64,000 bases of DNA, taken from positions 1 through 64,000 of the forward strand of contig CANJIS010000006.1 of the NCBI GenBank assembly GCA_947474565.1, read 5' to 3'. Positions 30,612 through 37,893 of the stretch are shown in pieces. Each line of letters begins with the position of its first letter. Within the stretch, counting starts at the first letter, position 1. The notes beneath the pieces were generated by a model. That model did not search any database and was not told the DNA's origin. It saw nothing but the letters and a program-made list of their open reading frames with translations. The translations under genes and the position numbers were made by a program. Source of the stretch: Alphaproteobacteria bacterium (GTDB lineage: Bacteria > Pseudomonadota > Alphaproteobacteria > Micropepsales > Micropepsaceae).

Positions 30612-30633
30612 ATTTTCCAGAGAGTTGCAAAAG

Positions 30634-30672
30634 AAAACGGCGGGCCATCTTGCGATGACCCGCCGTTCTTTT
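30634..30672. terminator. Bidirectional terminator between cysH and the first PQQ dehydrogenase gene
   Basis: AACGGCGGG (30636-30644) pairs with CCCGCCGTT (30659-30667), with flanking A and T runs on both sides (AAGAAAA before, CTTTT after). It can end transcription of cysH (+) and of the convergent PQQ gene (-). A sibling with changed but still paired bases lies at 33059. Confidence 0.85.
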
Positions 30673-30698
30673 AGGCGCCCGTCTTGTGGGCGTAAGCT

Positions 30699-32840
30699 TT
30701 AGTTGCCCTGCGGCAGAGCGTAGGCGAGATAGTCGCCCGAGTAGTTGCCGCCGGAGACGGCGACCACAACAAATTCCCTGCCTTCGATGGCATAGGTCAT
30801 CGGCGAGCCAGACTGCGGCGCGGGCATGAACACCGCACCGACTTCCGCACCCGTCTTCTGATCGCGGCCGCGCAGATAAGCGCCACGCGGATGACCGGGC
30901 TGGGTGACATAGCCACCGTCGCCCTGGAAGATCAGCGTCTTGTTCATGGCCACGCCAACCTGTGCACCCATACCGGTCGGCGGAATGGTCAGGCCCTTGA
31001 GGAGCGGATTGTCCTTGATCTCATCAGGCGTGGGGCCATTCGGCACCTGCCAGAGATGATCGCCGGTGTTGAGGTTGATGGCGGTGACAGTGCCGTAAGG
31101 CGGCTTGCCCAGCGGCAGACCGTCCACGTTACGCGGCGGGGGCGGACCAACCGCAACCTGCGGATGGGCAGCGAGAGCCGCGGCCAGCTTCTGATCTTCG
31201 GCGCTGACCTTCGGCGCGTCCGACGCGGAGCCGTAGCCCGGGCCGCCATTGATGCGGAACACCTGGCCACCGACGCCACCGGCATATTTGAGGTTGGTGA
31301 GACCTTCCGGCGTCGGCACAACGCCGGTAGCCGAAACGCTCTGCGACGCGGGCAGGAACACAACCTGGGTGGTCGGGTTGAAACCGCCGCCCGGCCAGTT
31401 GGTGCCGCCGCCGGCGCTGCCGTTGTTGATCGAACCCGAGGGGAATTCACCCTTCATGTTCGACAAGGCGGGCGGGTTATACATGCTGCCCATCTTGTAA
31501 TACTTCTTGATGATGTCCTTCGCCCGGGCGTTGATTTCCGGGGTGAAGTCGACGATGTCGTTCATCGTCACTTCGGTGCGCACATACGGCGCCGGCTTGG
31601 TGGGGAAGGGCTGCGTCTTGGAGGTCTTTTCAGTCGGCACATTGGACTGATCGACAGCCTTCTCGACGATCGGCCACACCGGCTTACCGGTGAGGCGGTC
31701 GAAGGTGTAGAGCCAGCCCTGCTTGGACGGCATCGCCACGGCTTCAATCGCCTTGCCATCGACATTGATGTCAACCAGCAGCGCCGGCGAGGACAAGTCA
31801 TAGTCCCAGATCGGATGGTGGGTGACCTGGAAGTACCACTTCAGCTTGCCGGTTTCGGAGTCCACTGCGACCAGCGAGTCGCCGTAGAGGTTGTTGCCCG
31901 GGCGGCCGCCGCCAAAATAGTCGGAGGTGGGGTCTTCCATCGGCAGGAAGGCGGTCTTGTTCTTTTCGTCGACCGTGATGCCGGTCCAGGTGCCGGTGTT
32001 GCCGTTATAGTCGGCAGAACCCTTCTCCCAGGTGTCGTAACCGAACTCACCCTTTTGCGGGATGTTGTGGAAGGTCCAGATCAGCTTGCCGGTCTTCACG
32101 TCGAAGGCGCGCGACAGACCCTTGGTGTTGTTCTGCTCCAGGGGCTGCATGCCTTCCTTGAAGGCGGAGCCGACAAAGATGGTGTTGCCGGCGACGGTCG
32201 GCACGGTGTGCAGGCCGATTTCACCGGTGATCAGGTCGATCTGCTTGTATTCGCCGGCCTTGCCCGGGACGCCGATATAGGCGCCGATCTTCAGATCCAC
32301 CACGCCATGCTCGCCGAAGCTTTCGATCGGCTGGCCGGTCTTGGCGTTCAGTTCCACCATGCGATAGCCGGTGGTGACATAGATGATGCGGTCATCGCCA
32401 TTGCCGTCGGTCCAGTAGGCGACGCCACGGCCGGAAAGCTGACGCGGGCTGATCGCAGCGCGCAGGCCTTCGTTCATGGAGTAGACCCACTTCAGTTCGC
32501 CGCTCTTGGCATCCAGCGCCACAACCGCGCGGCGCGAACCGCCAGTGGTGTAGATGGTGCCGTTGATTTCGATCGGGGTGCCTTCCAGCTTGTATTCCGG
32601 ATGGGCGCCCAGGGCGTCGGTCTTGAAGTGCCAGGCCAGTTCCAGCTTGTTGAAGTTCTGGGCATTGATCTGGTCTTGCGGCGAATAACGCGAGCCGCTG
32701 GTGTCGGCGAAATACATCGGCCAGTCGCCCTTGGCGGTGGAGGGCGTGTAGCCCTGCGCGTTGGCGACGCCGGCGATCACGAATGGCGCGAGCGCGATGG
32801 CGGCAACAGATGATAGGCGCAGACTCTTGCGGTTAGACAT
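30699..32840 (-). CDS. Secreted PQQ-dependent dehydrogenase, glucose/quinate-type propeller (copy 1)
   Basis: 713 residues from the ATG at 32840, which follows AAAGGGA; the frame also opens at a GTG 21 bases upstream. A signal peptide (~27 residues, ending GVANA) is followed by a beta-propeller with repeated GTPIEIN, YTTGG and LNAKTGQP-type blades. HHPIWDYD (about 340-347) and PSKQGWLYTFDR (about 370) correspond to the Asp and Lys that contact PQQ in membrane glucose dehydrogenases. Unlike those, it has no N-terminal membrane anchor. There is no cytochrome c domain. Substrate unknown. Its paralogue lies just upstream. Confidence 0.85.
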   Translation of the reverse strand: MSNRKSLRLSSVAAIALAPFVIAGVANAQGYTPSTAKGDWPMYFADTSGSRYSPQDQINAQNFNKLELAWHFKTDALGAHPEYKLEGTPIEINGTIYTTGGSRRAVVALDAKSGELKWVYSMNEGLRAAISPRQLSGRGVAYWTDGNGDDRIIYVTTGYRMVELNAKTGQPIESFGEHGVVDLKIGAYIGVPGKAGEYKQIDLITGEIGLHTVPTVAGNTIFVGSAFKEGMQPLEQNNTKGLSRAFDVKTGKLIWTFHNIPQKGEFGYDTWEKGSADYNGNTGTWTGITVDEKNKTAFLPMEDPTSDYFGGGRPGNNLYGDSLVAVDSETGKLKWYFQVTHHPIWDYDLSSPALLVDINVDGKAIEAVAMPSKQGWLYTFDRLTGKPVWPIVEKAVDQSNVPTEKTSKTQPFPTKPAPYVRTEVTMNDIVDFTPEINARAKDIIKKYYKMGSMYNPPALSNMKGEFPSGSINNGSAGGGTNWPGGGFNPTTQVVFLPASQSVSATGVVPTPEGLTNLKYAGGVGGQVFRINGGPGYGSASDAPKVSAEDQKLAAALAAHPQVAVGPPPPRNVDGLPLGKPPYGTVTAINLNTGDHLWQVPNGPTPDEIKDNPLLKGLTIPPTGMGAQVGVAMNKTLIFQGDGGYVTQPGHPRGAYLRGRDQKTGAEVGAVFMPAPQSGSPMTYAIEGREFVVVAVSGGNYSGDYLAYALPQGN

Positions 32841-33058
32841 TGGACGTTTCCCTTTCGACACGGAGATCTGAGCGTGTAAGCCACGCCCATTAATTTTATT
32901 CTATACAGTTTTCACACCAAAGGATGATGACTGGCAATACGCCTGGACCCTCTGGAAGCGAGATTCCGGGGATGAAAATGCAATAAATACAACGGGAAAA
33001 CTTCCCGGACGGCCAAAACTGGAACCGGCGGGCAATTCAACGCTGTTGCAGCAAAAAG

Positions 33059-33097
33059 AAAATAGCGGGCCATCGCAAGATGACCCGCTATTCTTTT
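33059..33097. terminator. Terminator downstream of PQQ dehydrogenase copy 2
   Basis: AATAGCGGG (33061-33069) pairs with CCCGCTATT (33084-33092), flanked by A and T runs. It is the counterpart of the hairpin at 30634: two stem pairs differ in a compensating way (GC to AT) and the loop end is TTGCG in one and CGCAA in the other. Confidence 0.85.
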
Positions 33098-33113
33098 AGG
33101 CACCCGTTGGGGC

Positions 33114-35261
33114 TTACTGGTTCTGCGGCAGAGCGTAGGCGAGATAGTCGCCCGAATAGTTGCCGCCCGAGACGGCAACGATCACGAACTCCCTGCCATC
33201 GGTGGTGTAGGTCATGGGCGAGCCGGACTGCGGCGCCGCCATGAAGATCTTGCCCACTTCCGCACCCGTCTTCTGGTCATAGCCACGCAGATAAGCGCCG
33301 CGCGGATGACCAGGCTGGGTCGAGTAGAGACCATCGCCCTGGAAGACCAGGGTCTTGTTCATGGCGATGCCCATCTGGGACTGCTGGCCGGTCTTGGGGA
33401 TGTTCAAACCCTTCAGAGCCGGATTGTCCTTGATCTCATCCGGTGTGTCGCCATTGACGACCTGCCAGACATGATCACCCGTGTTGAGGTTGATGGCGGT
33501 GAGCAAGCCGTAGGGCGGCTTGACCAGCGGCAGGCCACGGACGTTACGCGGCGGGGGCGGGCCAACCGCAGCTTGCGGATGGGCGGCAAGCGCCGCGGCC
33601 AGCTTCTGATCGTCGGCGCTGATCTTGGGCGCGTCCGAAGCAGAACCGAAGCCCGGGCCGCCATTGATGCGGAATACCTGGCCGCCGATGCCTTCGACAT
33701 ACTTCATGTCGGAAAGGCCTTCCGGCAGCGGAACCAGGCCCATCATCGAGACGCCGGCATTCGCCGCGGGGGCGAAGACGACGCTGGTGGTGGGATTGAA
33801 GCCGGCGCCGGGCCAGTTGGTGCCGCCGCCAAGCGTGCCGATATCCATCGTGGCCGACGGGAATCCGCCGGTCGGATTGGAGACCACCGCAGGGCCAAAC
33901 ATCGGCGACATTTTCCAATGCGCCTTCACGATGTCCTGCGCTTCCTTCTTCATTTCCGGCGTGAAGTCGATCAGGTCGGCGTCCGTGATTTCCTGACGCG
34001 CATAAGCTGCCGGCTTGGTCGGGAAGGGCTGTGTCTTGGCGGTCTTTTCGCCAGGCACATTGGTTTGCGGCACGGCCTTCTCATTGATCGGCCACACCGG
34101 CTTACCGGTGATGCGGTCGAAGGTGTAGAGGAAGGCCTGCTTGGACGGAACCGCGACAGCCTTGATCGGTTTGCCATCAACAGTGATGTCGACCAGCAGC
34201 GGCGGCGAGGACGAGTCATAGTCCCAGATCGGGTGATGAACGAGCTGGTAGTACCAGCGCATTTTGCCGGTATTAAAATCCAGCGCGACGATGCTGTCAC
34301 CGAACAAATTGTTGCCCGGACGGCCGCCGCCAAACGCGTCGTTGGTGGGATCTTCGATCGGGACATAGACCATGCCGGATTCTTTATCGGCGGTCATCGA
34401 GGCCCAGGTGCCGGTGTTGCCGTTATAGTCGGCAGAACCCTTTTCCCAGGTGTCGTAACCGAACTCACCCTTCTGCGGGATGTTGTGGAAGGTCCAGTTC
34501 AGCTTGCCGGTCTTGGCGTCATAGGAACGCGTGATGCCCTTGGTGTTGTTCTGCTCCAGGGGCTGCGAACCTTCCTTGAAGGCCGAACCGATGAACACCG
34601 AGTCACCGACAACAGTGGCGGTGGAGTGCAGGCCGATTTCACCGGTGGTGAGATCGATCTGCTTATAGGTGGCGGGCTGGCCCATCACGCCGGTGTAGGC
34701 ACCGACCTTCAGATCCACCATGCCGTGATCGCCGAAGCTGTCGATCGGCTGGCCGGTCTTGGCGTTCAGTGACACCAGGCGATAGCCGGTGGTGATGTAG
34801 AGAATGCGGTCATCGCCATTGCCGTCAGTCCAGTAGGACACGCCACGGCCGGAAAGCTGGCGCGGGCCGACAGCGGCGCGCAGGCCTTCATTCATGGAAT
34901 AGACCCACTTCAGTTCACCGGTCTTGGCGTCCAGCGCCACAACCGCTCGGCGCGAACCGGCGGTGGTGTAAACCACGCCGTTCACTTCGATCGGAGTGCC
35001 TTCCAGCTTGAATTCCGGATGGGCGCCGAGCGAGTCGGTCTTGAAGTGCCAGGCGAGCTCCAGCTTGTTGAAGTTCTGGCCGGTGATCTGATCGGAACCT
35101 GCCGAATAGCGCGAACCCGACGGGTCGGCGAAATACATCGGCCAGTCGCCCTTGGTGGTGGACGGCGTATAGCCTTGCGCGTTGACGGCGGCGGCAAGCA
35201 TGAACGGCGCGAGCGCGACGGCCGCGACCGATGACAAGCGCAACATGGTGCGATGAGACAT
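33114..35261 (-). CDS. Secreted PQQ-dependent dehydrogenase, glucose/quinate-type propeller (copy 2)
   Basis: 715 residues, collinear with copy 1 over the whole length and clearly a tandem duplicate. Signal peptide of about 28 residues ending AAVNA. PQQ-site motifs are kept: HHPIWDYD at 342-349 and PSKQAFLYTFDR at 372-383. The start has the same AAAGGGAAACGTT leader as copy 1. Differences are concentrated in surface stretches such as the region around residues 425-480. The predicted location is periplasmic. A substrate split between the copies is possible but not shown. Electron acceptor and PQQ synthesis genes are outside the window. Confidence 0.85.
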   Translation of the reverse strand: MSHRTMLRLSSVAAVALAPFMLAAAVNAQGYTPSTTKGDWPMYFADPSGSRYSAGSDQITGQNFNKLELAWHFKTDSLGAHPEFKLEGTPIEVNGVVYTTAGSRRAVVALDAKTGELKWVYSMNEGLRAAVGPRQLSGRGVSYWTDGNGDDRILYITTGYRLVSLNAKTGQPIDSFGDHGMVDLKVGAYTGVMGQPATYKQIDLTTGEIGLHSTATVVGDSVFIGSAFKEGSQPLEQNNTKGITRSYDAKTGKLNWTFHNIPQKGEFGYDTWEKGSADYNGNTGTWASMTADKESGMVYVPIEDPTNDAFGGGRPGNNLFGDSIVALDFNTGKMRWYYQLVHHPIWDYDSSSPPLLVDITVDGKPIKAVAVPSKQAFLYTFDRITGKPVWPINEKAVPQTNVPGEKTAKTQPFPTKPAAYARQEITDADLIDFTPEMKKEAQDIVKAHWKMSPMFGPAVVSNPTGGFPSATMDIGTLGGGTNWPGAGFNPTTSVVFAPAANAGVSMMGLVPLPEGLSDMKYVEGIGGQVFRINGGPGFGSASDAPKISADDQKLAAALAAHPQAAVGPPPPRNVRGLPLVKPPYGLLTAINLNTGDHVWQVVNGDTPDEIKDNPALKGLNIPKTGQQSQMGIAMNKTLVFQGDGLYSTQPGHPRGAYLRGYDQKTGAEVGKIFMAAPQSGSPMTYTTDGREFVIVAVSGGNYSGDYLAYALPQNQ

Positions 35262-35676
35262 TGAACGTTTCCCTTTCCCGACACAGAGGTGACAGGCGAG
35301 AAGCCCCGCGCCTTTATCCCTCCATATATTGTGGGCTCAGCTTTACACACGCTCGGTAGGAGTCGCAATACGCTGCCAGCCGCCGGAGGGCCAGAAATGG
35401 TCAGTTTTCTTGTCAAAACCGAGGGGGAAAAATGCCCGATGCGGATCATTTCCGTGGCATGCAAAATTGTACAAAAACATGAGAACAAAGGCGCTTGTTC
35501 GCGTCCGTTCAACCGCGGACTCAGCAATGCCGCGTTCGGCCCTGTTGATGTTGCCCATATCCTAGGCAGGGCCGCTGCCTTCCCGGCCGGGCGCCGAAGG
35601 GATAAAAACCTGTCGTTGGAATCTGAAACTCCGGGGAAACGGAGAGCGGTTCCGTTTTCATCAGGGAGAGAGAGAA
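35262..35676. promoter_or_regulatory. Divergent intergenic region between PQQ dehydrogenase copy 2 and the cupin gene
   Basis: 415 bases without a convincing gene; only short open frames without ribosome sites are seen. It must hold the promoters of both divergent genes. A TTGACA reads on the minus strand at 35411-35416 but has no -10 at normal distance. An ACAATATAT stretch near 35325-35335 (minus strand) is a possible -10. AGGGAGAGAGAG precedes the cupin ATG. No clear operator was found. Confidence 0.4.
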
Positions 35677-36342
35677 ATGAATAAAATCGTTCTGGGCACA
35701 ACCGTGCTCTGCCTTGCTGCTACCGGTGTCCTGGCCCAGGCCATGGCCCCCAAGCCCACCGCATCCACCTTCATCAGCAACGCCACCATCGAGAGCATCC
35801 TGAAGGACTCGATGGGTGATCACACTATCAAGACCATGGAGATGGGTCAGGGCTATCAGATGGCCGTCGCCGTTGTGAATCGCGGGCCCTCCAATGCCCC
35901 GGCCGCCGCACCGACCGCAGCACAGCAGGCCAATGCCGCCGCTGCCGCCAAGCAGCCGGCCTGCGGTGTCGCCACAGCGCCCGCCGGCGCCAAGCTGGGC
36001 CCCAAGGGCATGATCCAGCATGACGCGACCCCCGAGACCTACATCGTGACCAAGGGCTCGGGCACGCTGGTGACGGGTGGCCAGGTGCTGGCCGGCCGCC
36101 GTTCGGATCCCGAAGGCATTGTGACCAAGATTTTGAATGGTCCGTCCTGCAGTGGCCAGGCCGTGGGCAATTTCACTTCCCAGAAAATGGTGGTGGGTGA
36201 CGTGATGGTGATCCCGGCGGGCGTGCCGCATGGCTGGACCGATATTCCGGCTTCCGGCGTGACGTATCTGAGCATTCGTCCGGACCCGAAATATGTCCTG
36301 CCGCGCAACTTCACGTATCAGCTGGGCAAGAAATATCCCTAA
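35677..36342 (+). CDS. Secreted cupin-domain protein
   Basis: 221 residues with a signal peptide (about residues 1-21, ending VLAQA). The cupin parts are HDATPETYIVTKGSGTLVTGG (about residues 110-130) and GDVMVIPAGVPHGWTDI (about 178-194), each with histidine/glutamate ligands of a metal site. An Ala/Pro-rich insert (about residues 70-95) interrupts the N-terminal part. Two cysteines in the mature part (CGVA and SCSG) could form a disulfide. Divergent from the PQQ genes, so a shared periplasmic role is plausible. Reaction unknown. Confidence 0.75.
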   Translation: MNKIVLGTTVLCLAATGVLAQAMAPKPTASTFISNATIESILKDSMGDHTIKTMEMGQGYQMAVAVVNRGPSNAPAAAPTAAQQANAAAAAKQPACGVATAPAGAKLGPKGMIQHDATPETYIVTKGSGTLVTGGQVLAGRRSDPEGIVTKILNGPSCSGQAVGNFTSQKMVVGDVMVIPAGVPHGWTDIPASGVTYLSIRPDPKYVLPRNFTYQLGKKYP

Positions 36343-36391: not shown

Positions 36392-36474
36392 ACGTCCTGA
36401 GTTTTCTGCAGTTCTAAAGGTGATTGAAACGAAGCGATTTGGTAACCGCATCATGATTGGGAAGGCATTGTCGC

Positions 36475-37233
36475 ATGACCAATTTTGGATTCGTTGTTCC
36501 CTATAGAGATAGAGCAGCTCACCTCGAACTCTTCATGCCCCATATGCTGGCGTATTTTCAGCAGCCTTTGAACAACTGGGCTGACCGCGTCGTCTTGAAA
36601 ATAATCGAGCAAGAGCCGGGGCTGGAATTCAACCGCGGCGCATTGAAAAATATCGGGTTTGTCTTGTCCCGTCAGGCCACCTCGGCCACCTGTTTTCATG
36701 ACGTGGATTTTCTGCCCGTCCATGTGAATTATCGCACTCCTGCGGGTTGGGCCCCTCTGGTCCAAGGCGGGTTTGAACAGGCTTACGCCGGAGGGCTTAT
36801 TGTTCCCCATGCGAAGGATTTCTACGGCGGCGCGGTTATTTTCCAGAATTCCTGCTTTGAAAATATCAACGGCTACAGCAACACATATTGGGGCTATGGT
36901 TTTGAGGATGCCGATCTTGCCTTGCGCACCGGCATCGGTGACGTGCCGTATGAACACCGAAGCGGCGAGTTCAAGCTCTTGCTGCATGAGCATCACGGCT
37001 TTGCCGTTTCGACCTCCGGGGATGTTGCGCGCGTGCCGAGCTTTTTGAGGAACGAGGCGCTGTTTGACCAGCGCTTCCCCAGCGGCTCCACGAATGCGCA
37101 GCGCCGCTCAAGCTCCTGTTATTCCACCGATGGACTTTCGTCCCTCAAGTTCGAAATTCTGAACCGCCGAAGACTTGTCGACGTGCCCGATAAATTCGAC
37201 ATAGAGATTGTGACCGTTTCAATTTCTCCATAA
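36475..37233 (+). CDS. Beta-1,4-galactosyltransferase-like glycosyltransferase (GT7-like)
   Basis: 252 residues from ATG 36475, preceded by GGGAAGG. It shows, in order, the layout of animal beta4GalT catalytic domains: GFVVPYRDRAAHL (residues ~4-16), FNRGALKNIGF (~50-60), the metal DVD in CFHDVDFLP (~72-80), FYGGAVIF (~117-124) and GYSNTYWGYGFEDADL (~133-148). It lacks a membrane anchor, so it would be cytosolic. It would transfer a sugar from a UDP donor; acceptor unknown. Base composition is visibly lower in GC than the neighbours (about half in the first 180 bases), and it sits beside a tRNA gene, suggesting acquisition by transfer. Confidence 0.75.
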   Translation: MTNFGFVVPYRDRAAHLELFMPHMLAYFQQPLNNWADRVVLKIIEQEPGLEFNRGALKNIGFVLSRQATSATCFHDVDFLPVHVNYRTPAGWAPLVQGGFEQAYAGGLIVPHAKDFYGGAVIFQNSCFENINGYSNTYWGYGFEDADLALRTGIGDVPYEHRSGEFKLLLHEHHGFAVSTSGDVARVPSFLRNEALFDQRFPSGSTNAQRRSSSCYSTDGLSSLKFEILNRRRLVDVPDKFDIEIVTVSISP

Positions 37234-37260
37234 GGGGCGCGGCCTGCCTGTCCTGCCATG

Positions 37261-37291
37261 AAAAAAGCGCCCGCTTGGGCGGGCGCTTTTT
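37261..37291. terminator. Bidirectional terminator between the galactosyltransferase-like gene and tRNA-Leu
   Basis: AGCGCCCGC (37266-37274) and GCGGGCGCT (37279-37287) form a 9-bp stem with loop TTGG, flanked by A6 on the left and T5 on the right, so it works in both directions. Confidence 0.92.
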
Positions 37292-37294
37292 GAA

Positions 37295-37378
37295 TGGTGC
37301 GGTCGAGAAGACTCGAACTTCCACGGGTTGCCCCGCTACCACCTCAAGGTAGTGCGTCTACCGTTCCGCCACGACCGC
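37295..37378 (-). tRNA. tRNA-Leu (anticodon GAG)
   Basis: The minus strand folds as a class II tRNA. The acceptor stem is GCGGTCG / CGACCGC with discriminator A and an encoded CCA (37295-37297). The anticodon stem is CTACC / GGTAG around the loop TTGAGGT, giving anticodon GAG. A long variable arm (CGGG..CCCG) and a T arm with TTCGAGT follow. It decodes CUC and CUU. Confidence 0.96.
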
Positions 37379-37464
37379 ACAGTCAGGAAAAAGCTGGTAG
37401 GGGCGGGGGTTTAGCAATCCAAAGCCCTCAAGACAAGCGGCCCTGCGCCTGTTAAGAAAAACCC

Positions 37465-37893
37465 ATGCTCCATCTCATCAAACTCTGTGTTGGCGTGGAT
37501 TCCCTTGAGGTATTGGCCCGTTGGCAGAAACAGCGGCTGGCCGAAAAGAAGAAGAAAGGCCAGAAGCCGGAACTGGTCCATGTCACCCGCCAGACGCCCA
37601 AGCGGGCCGAGGAGCTGCTGGATGGCGGTTCGCTCTATTGGGTGATCAAGGGCCAGATCGCGGCGCGTCAGAAGCTGATCGCGCTGCGGCCGCTGACGCG
37701 CGAAGGGGTGCCGCATTGCGGGCTGGTGTATGACAAAAAGCTGGTGCCGGTGGCGCGCCGGCCGCGCGCCGCGTTCCAGGGCTGGCGTTATCTGGATGCC
37801 AAGGAAGCGCCTGCTGATATCGCCGATATCAAAGGCGCCAAGGGATTGCCGGCGGCGCTGCAGCAAGAGCTTGCCGCCTTGGGGCTTCTCTAG
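37465..37893 (+). CDS. DUF1489 family protein
   Basis: 142 residues, the typical length of this alphaproteobacterial family of unknown function. The start LHLIKLCVGVDSLEVL, the middle SLYWVIKGQIAARQ and PHCGLVYDKKLV are characteristic. Lysine-rich stretch at residues ~26-35. No signal peptide. It converges on panC with a four-base overlap. Confidence 0.85.
   Translation: MLHLIKLCVGVDSLEVLARWQKQRLAEKKKKGQKPELVHVTRQTPKRAEELLDGGSLYWVIKGQIAARQKLIALRPLTREGVPHCGLVYDKKLVPVARRPRAAFQGWRYLDAKEAPADIADIKGAKGLPAALQQELAALGLL

Follow-up and report, generated by a model that had tools for sequence, protein, structure and literature searches.

The 64,000-nucleotide window analysed here (contig CANJIS010000006.1; Alphaproteobacteria, Micropepsaceae) contains two adjacent genes for secreted dehydrogenases of the pyrroloquinoline quinone (PQQ) type, termed A and B, next to a gene for a secreted cupin-like protein. 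The locus raises the question from where these enzymes obtain their cofactor, to which acceptor they deliver electrons and how the cupin-like protein is involved. The explanation that agrees best with the sequence comparisons and the structural model, and to which we assign a probability of roughly 0.6, is that A and B are periplasmic oxidases which scavenge PQQ and feed a soluble cytochrome c, with the cupin-like protein as an accessory. The components are located in the window as follows.

30699..32840, minus strand: dehydrogenase A, secreted, PQQ-type, 713 residues (PF01011, residue alignment; W-D-Y-D and P-S-K motifs kept)
33114..35261, minus strand: dehydrogenase B, secreted, PQQ-type, 715 residues (PF01011, residue alignment, AlphaFold2 model)
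35262..35676, strandless: region of 415 bases between the divergent genes for B and the cupin-like protein
35677..36342, plus strand: secreted cupin-like protein, 221 residues, a conserved neighbour in the closest clade

All three open reading frames (ORFs) are intact and the cupin gene is transcribed divergently from the dehydrogenase genes across the shared region, as had been stated in the sequence-only reading, an earlier description of the locus made from the letters alone. The signal peptides it had noted on both dehydrogenases were likewise recovered; they are of the Sec type and, read by eye, end in ...VANA-Q, ...AVNA-Q and ...VLA-Q in the three proteins. Nearly the whole of A and B is matched by the Pfam PQQ family PF01011 (511.1 and 518 bits, respectively; cut-off 26.7), and the two proteins are 75.3% identical, with 0.51 synonymous substitutions per site (dS) and a ratio of nonsynonymous to synonymous rates (dN/dS) of 0.34. 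In the alignment to E. coli Gcd, given in the residue numbers of that enzyme with the letters verified on the MG1655 gene, both keep Trp404, Asp466, Asp468, Lys493 and Arg266, which include the putative PQQ Asp and Lys (Asp466, Lys493) postulated before. Trp404 and Lys493 are present in 67 of 67 aligned relatives, Asp468 in 65 and Asp466 in 61. At the position of His262 A and B carry Gln and at Asp354-Asn355 Glu-Gly, and neither protein contains a single Cys residue.

The beta-propeller domain and the five residues listed above connect A and B with E. coli Gcd, the representative of TIGR03074, from which they are nevertheless distinguished by Gln for His262, by the profile scores and by their phylogenetic position. 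Scores against TIGR03074 (A 324.1, B 320.7 bits) lie below the curated cut-off of 832.65, and the matches begin at profile position 147-148 of 783, A and B having a signal peptide and no N-terminal membrane anchor. A tree of 62 proteins, in which the deep joins are unsure because long branches meet, as the program warns, places A and B inside a well supported clade separate from E. coli Gcd; the latter groups with four other proteins of the genus (support 100/100). On the basis of profile and tree, A and B are placed outside the canonical membrane glucose/quinate family. The earlier designation as anchor-free propeller enzymes of the glucose/quinate type is correct with respect to the missing anchor, and the type assignment has to be reduced to distant kinship.

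The AlphaFold2 model of B, calculated from 26 sequences with a mean predicted local distance difference test score (pLDDT) of 84 and a predicted template modelling score (pTM) of 0.87, finds its best structural matches among PQQ alcohol dehydrogenases, XoxF and PedH (Z 29-33). Superposition with 9m2c gives Z 32.9 and a root-mean-square deviation of 2.4 over 492 residues; other propellers (designed eight-bladed proteins, BamB) reach Z values of at most 27.6. B is predicted from this model to adopt the eight-bladed quinoprotein (PQQ dehydrogenase) fold. The known PQQ alcohol dehydrogenases (types I/II, XoxF, PedH) also share the periplasmic location and the cytochrome c partner that are predicted for A and B. 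They differ in sequence (21-28% identity in structural alignments); moreover, A and B have no fused haem domain and, because Cys is lacking altogether, no adjacent-Cys disulphide.

In the source genome (2.18 Mb on 39 contigs, 99.84% complete), profile searches for PqqC (TIGR02111) and PqqE (TIGR02109) gave no match above cut-off, PqqA, PqqB and PqqD not having been searched. The absence of PQQ genes claimed for the window is thereby substantiated for PqqC and PqqE and extended to the whole searched genome. PqqE-like matches in the same genome (best 59 bits; cut-off 381) were rejected and taken as other radical S-adenosylmethionine proteins, because the same search produces sub-cut-off matches in all 14 control genomes.

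A similar result was obtained for the genus, sampled by 60 genomes (the source genome included) drawn from a larger group. Matches to B were recorded in 49 of the 60 genomes, with at least 8 in 21 and at least 20 in 17 of them; the counts are of matches rather than genes, with scoring limited to 18 candidates per genome. PqqC is above cut-off in 3/60 genomes and PqqE in 4/60, namely in the three PqqC-positive ones and in G005, where PqqC is matched only in part (159 bits); a PqqC-like match of 49 bits in G060 is far below the cut-off. Neither protein is above cut-off in any of the 21 quinoprotein-rich genomes (8 to 32 matches each), six of these absences being weaker since 15 of the 21 genomes are at least 90% complete. 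Within the genus, richness in quinoproteins and PQQ synthesis are not significantly exclusive (0/21 versus 4/39, p = 0.29). A class-wide sample of 190 genomes, from which three of the same genus were left out of the count, contains 52 genomes with a TIGR03074 match at E 1e-20 or better, of which 27 have PqqC above cut-off; quinoproteins without PqqC (25/52) are consequently common in the class. The value of 0/21 in the genus is below this class rate (p = 8e-6), a comparison which is indicative only, as the inclusion rules differ and the genomes are related. The genus seems mostly unable to make PQQ and, as far as these profile searches indicate, departs from the pattern outlined in passages of Haft (PMC3023750), according to which the large families of enzymes that need an unusual redox factor co-occur with its biosynthesis. 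The occurrence of a quinoprotein in a genome without detected PQQ synthesis is shared with TIGR04528 (acido-empty-quinoprotein group A); however, A and B match this profile with only 203.2 and 208.2 bits, below the curated cut-off of 650.

With E. coli PqqU as query, two TonB receptors were detected in the source genome at weak significance (E 1e-9 and 4e-7). The PqqU signature, as specified in the part of Munder et al. (PMC12124388) used here, consists of Tyr/Phe/Trp99, Arg304 and Arg365. When aligned to E. coli PqqU, both receptors lack an aromatic residue at position 99 and Arg at 365; at position 304, one of them has Arg in the pairwise alignment and a gap in the three-way alignment. The E. 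coli-type signature was not found in the source genome, receptors too distant for a PqqU search falling outside this scope. Passages of the same paper (PMC12124388) report PqqU in one alphaproteobacterium only, infer that the class mainly makes its own PQQ and propose diffusion as the entry of PQQ into some other bacteria; entry by diffusion may apply here as well. TonB receptor genes are located divergently before the dehydrogenase genes in three relatives (L058:3442-5514, L059:3490-5559 and L060:572-2629, all on the minus strand), two of which are metagenome-assembled genomes of Kordiimonadaceae. These receptors, recognised by Pfam on L058 and by similarity on L059 and L060, do not have the signature residues of E. 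coli PqqU; PQQ, a metal carrier or the substrate could be their cargo.

The electron path had been regarded as open. No cytochrome is encoded near the locus itself; a strong candidate emerges from the relatives and from six homologues in the source genome. A small secreted cytochrome c of about 146 residues is encoded within 1.5 kb of the dehydrogenase in 12 of 25 relatives of the clade (at least 700 bits), in 11 of these 12 on the same strand, and in 2 of 17 relatives scoring 500-700 bits. The set of 25 is counted without the two genes of the window, duplicate or overlapping loci (L001-L009, L023, L092, L096, L098 and L108) and ORFs shorter than 550 residues; two of the 12 cytochrome entries refer to the same cytochrome (L058), and for 4 of the 25 the contig or stretch ends within 700 bases. 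As 13 of the 25 relatives have no nearby cytochrome, the adjacency is frequent, not universal. Matches to Cytochrome_CBB3 and Cytochrom_C were obtained in L051 and, more weakly, in L056 and L058. With such a small soluble cytochrome c beside the dehydrogenase in many relatives, there is a good candidate for the electron path: judged from this gene association, A and B likely pass their electrons to a small cytochrome c that is encoded in trans. The six homologues of the source genome are all located off the contig of the window; the best one (44%) adjoins the dehydrogenase paralogue termed C16, on the opposite strand. The small cytochrome c of C16 is located at 37166-37528 of that contig. In the distant relative L076 cytochrome and dehydrogenase are united in one ORF, and L067 was flagged likewise by the scan. 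Directly after the dehydrogenase in L026:3535-5019 and L028:3584-5053 (plus strand), a small cytochrome c is fused to a domain that by eye resembles an NHL propeller.

The cupin-like protein scores 22.4 bits against Cupin_2 (PF07883), under the cut-off of 27.2, and has no NCBIfam match. According to the usual definition of the cupin metal-binding motifs, motif 2 of the postulated two-motif cupin is recognisable in the sequence and motif 1 retains one of its two His; His115, Glu120 and His185 are invariant in seven sequences. A conserved neighbourhood of cupin and dehydrogenase, which had been chosen beforehand as a check, exists in the closest relatives, the order of the genes varying: the cupin gene is divergent in the window, downstream of the dehydrogenase in G009, upstream in G014 and L052-L054, and downstream with the cytochrome in between in L056. 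G014 and L052-L054 are treated as one event because they are sisters in the tree and occupy a similar genomic place. On the short stretch L068, a cupin gene split into two parts is located upstream of an incomplete dehydrogenase gene. A cupin gene within 1.5 kb was found in 6 of the 25 clade relatives, all among the 15 closest, and in none of the other ten (700-900 bits) or of the 17 in the 500-700 bit band. The set in L056 (681-4191, plus strand), comprising a 64% identical dehydrogenase, the cytochrome and the cupin, resides on a contig binned as Terriglobia (Acidobacteriota), which suggests either inter-phylum transfer or a mis-binned contig.

A and B are not the only enzymes of this kind in the source genome. 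Thirteen places match B and were read as 10 genes, split places being merged by ORF; six of the 10 (B included) are at least 69% identical, one is 48% identical and three are more distant. The tree unites A, B and the copies C26 and C5 in one clade, which among the sampled sequences is confined to this genome, and dN/dS amounts to 0.26-0.35 among the six own paralogues. A and B are recent paralogues; the larger clade to which they belong, made up of soluble quinoproteins resembling glucose dehydrogenase, is expanded. A suspected in-frame TAG in two own paralogues was rejected, both ORFs being open across 710 and 714 residues. The catalytic Asp is replaced by Asn in the own copies C33 and C16 and in both L055 copies of G009. 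The Asn-type quinoprotein copies are located as follows.

L079:2975-5119, minus strand: Asn-type quinoprotein copy
L081:3919-6156, plus strand: Asn-type quinoprotein copy
L055:830-2974, plus strand: Asn-type quinoprotein copy
L055:5833-8157, plus strand: Asn-type quinoprotein copy

They form one clade (support 100/99) of two orthologous pairs conserved in two species, with dN/dS 0.30 between C33 and C16. The catalytic Asp is also missing in L064, a distant protein of acidobacterial origin with Asn at this position, and in L059:8199-10286, which has Gly. By their sequences, the Asn copies would either have little or no activity and a different role, or use another residue as the base.

The periplasmic oxidation locus originally envisaged is supported, as are the retained PQQ residues and a conserved cupin neighbourhood in the closest relatives, and we propose the following scenario. 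After export, the apo-enzymes would be loaded with PQQ and a metal in the periplasm, for which the predicted fold and the Trp/Asp/Asp/Lys set appear suited. The cell would not make PQQ itself and would have to obtain it externally without a recognisable PqqU of the E. coli type, e.g. by diffusion through porins or via a receptor not yet recognised. A and B might then oxidise a sugar, polyol or alcohol, and the electrons would be transferred to the small soluble c-type cytochrome, encoded in trans, whose gene stands beside the enzyme in many relatives. The cupin-like protein, associated with the closest clade by gene position, would be an accessory particular to that clade, probably an enzyme that depends on a metal and acts on the substrate or the oxidised product. 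Several observations weigh against this scenario. Neither the window nor its contig yielded a homologue of the partner cytochrome c; Gln at His262 and the complete lack of Cys make the substrate side unlike that of characterised enzymes; the cupin-like protein has no significant solved relative (sole solved match E 0.34), and its AlphaFold2 model (7 sequences) failed with a pLDDT of 42. Furthermore, the cupin of the sister species G009 adjoins a dehydrogenase copy without the catalytic Asp, and cupins of the family also occur away from dehydrogenases, own-genome paralogues included. In favour of the link between cupin and dehydrogenase, a close cupin is present in 6 of 9 genomes with a close dehydrogenase and in 2 of 51 others (60 genomes, p = 4e-5), a value which is optimistic because the genomes are few and related and the limits were set after seeing the hits.

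The neighbourhood might also be fortuitous, a recently amplified dehydrogenase gene having come to lie beside an unrelated cupin gene. The cupins of G067 and G075 on a contig other than that of the listed close dehydrogenases, and the own copies C26, C5, C33 and C16 without a cupin within 1.5 kb, would fit this explanation; we nevertheless consider it quite improbable, as the adjacency recurs in the source genome, G009, G014, the L052-L054 group and L056 in four gene orders and does not extend to the more distant relatives covered by the analysis. Slightly more credence, though still little, is given to the idea that the propellers are 'empty' or PQQ-independent and that an organism without PQQ retained them for a role in binding or sensing or for use with another cofactor. 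The lack of PqqC and PqqE above cut-off in all 21 quinoprotein-rich genomes, the incomplete signatures of the two PqqU hits, the conserved Asn subclade and the very name of the NCBIfam model 'acido-empty-quinoprotein', which describes a similar situation, are in line with it; on the other hand, A and B keep all four checked cofactor and catalytic residues, the clade often stands beside cytochromes c, as expected for redox work, G073 with a 68% identical relative possesses PqqC and PqqE, and the TIGR04528 scores are far from the cut-off. A dependence on lanthanides, the expansion then reflecting metal rather than substrate diversity, is compatible with PQQ-scavenging oxidases and is regarded as a tentative possibility. 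D-x-D, taken as a lanthanide signature in parts of a marine survey (PMC11996626), is found in A and B as WDYD, and its authors extend the motif to the E. coli-type glucose dehydrogenase as facultatively lanthanide-dependent; the same enzyme, which complexes Ca, Mg, Zn and Sr (PMC11996626), contains D-x-D as WDMD, so that the motif does not decide the metal. Rather doubtful is an alphaproteobacterial lineage living on scavenged PQQ via an unrecognised uptake system together with a different, non-dehydrogenase chemistry of the Asn subclade. With dozens of quinoproteins and neither PQQ synthesis nor a known importer, such a lineage would depend on this uptake system, for which the TonB receptors of the three relatives would be candidates.

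Expansions of quinoproteins as such are already known from the marine survey, which in the sections used here reports as many as 70 putative lanthanide quinoproteins in single genomes of Acidobacteria and Pseudomonadales, and also glucose-dehydrogenase-like groups that have no membrane part and of which a genome carries few copies (PMC11996626). Compared by description, A and B resemble its 'putative GDH group 1b/2' (GDH, glucose dehydrogenase) from marine metagenomes in being GDH-like, without a transmembrane part and equipped with D-x-D; they differ in occurring in many copies per genome. Among the papers listed by searches of the open-licence literature there was no soluble GDH-like expansion without PQQ synthesis and with such a cytochrome and cupin, no cupin combined with a quinoprotein, an operon and a TonB-dependent system and, by phrase search, no quinoproteins lacking PQQ synthesis. 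The enzyme expansions of SAR202 were dropped as a parallel, the main text of the respective paper containing neither PQQ nor pyrroloquinoline nor quinoprotein. With dehydrogenase, small cytochrome c and cupin, the locus supplies a concrete partner set with which the substrate of this uncharacterised clade of quinoproteins can be sought. The source of PQQ in a genus mostly seeming unable to make it is a testable question, which the 21/60 quinoprotein-rich genomes and the 25/52 class genomes without PqqC turn into a direct one for PQQ acquisition in Alphaproteobacteria.

Genes for an aldo/keto reductase, a lipoyl ligase and a phosphoadenosine phosphosulfate reductase lie before A and recur in the same order in G009 (L057), where they precede a 73% identical dehydrogenase on the other strand; a biotin carboxylase gene precedes the three genes in the window (Pfam) and in L057 (by eye). 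The cupin-dehydrogenase pair of G014 and L052 is instead close to a gene of the semialdehyde dehydrogenase family, and the differing surroundings imply that the module is found at different places. The own paralogues C16 and C5 are situated in regions with molybdenum hydroxylase-type proteins, for which MoCoBD is above the Pfam cut-offs and no NCBIfam model is above cut-off. MoeA, a 2Fe-2S protein and a cytochrome are encoded about 6-13 kb from the C16 dehydrogenase, which is also flanked by an NHL/SMP-30-like protein, and on L055 the two copies of G009 have a protein of the dienelactone hydrolase family encoded between them. As clues to the substrate, these neighbours of paralogues and relatives suggest, without naming the product, that an aldehyde or lactone is processed further. 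The run of MoeA, MoCoBD oxidoreductase, 2Fe-2S protein and cytochrome c near the C16 quinoprotein (L081:12203-19292) is possibly an alcohol-to-acid oxidation island.

Two further elements concern the transcription of the dehydrogenase genes.

30628..30673, minus strand: terminator-like hairpin 3' of A, a near-copy of that of B (folding)
33059..33094, minus strand: terminator-like hairpin 3' of B, 16 pairs and a T-rich tail (terminator scan and folding)

The stretch 30620-30698 containing the A-side hairpin, which is outside the list of the terminator scan, folds at -40.2 kcal/mol. The scan found 9 such sites compared to a shuffle mean of 5.9, and the number of hairpins itself is therefore unremarkable. 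Because each gene has its own terminator-like hairpin at the 3' side, A and B are probably separate transcripts and not one operon. A promoter scan near the three genes, including the 415-base region, revealed no sigma-70-type consensus (1.5 expected). The best start of A is ATG 32840, preferred to an extension of the ORF to GTG 32861 because it is associated with the same GGGAAACGT(T/C)CA leader as gene B. Directly 3' of the cupin gene, a galactosyltransferase-type gene (Glyco_transf_7; 36457-37233, plus strand) was identified with 43-46 bits versus cut-offs of 27 and 23.

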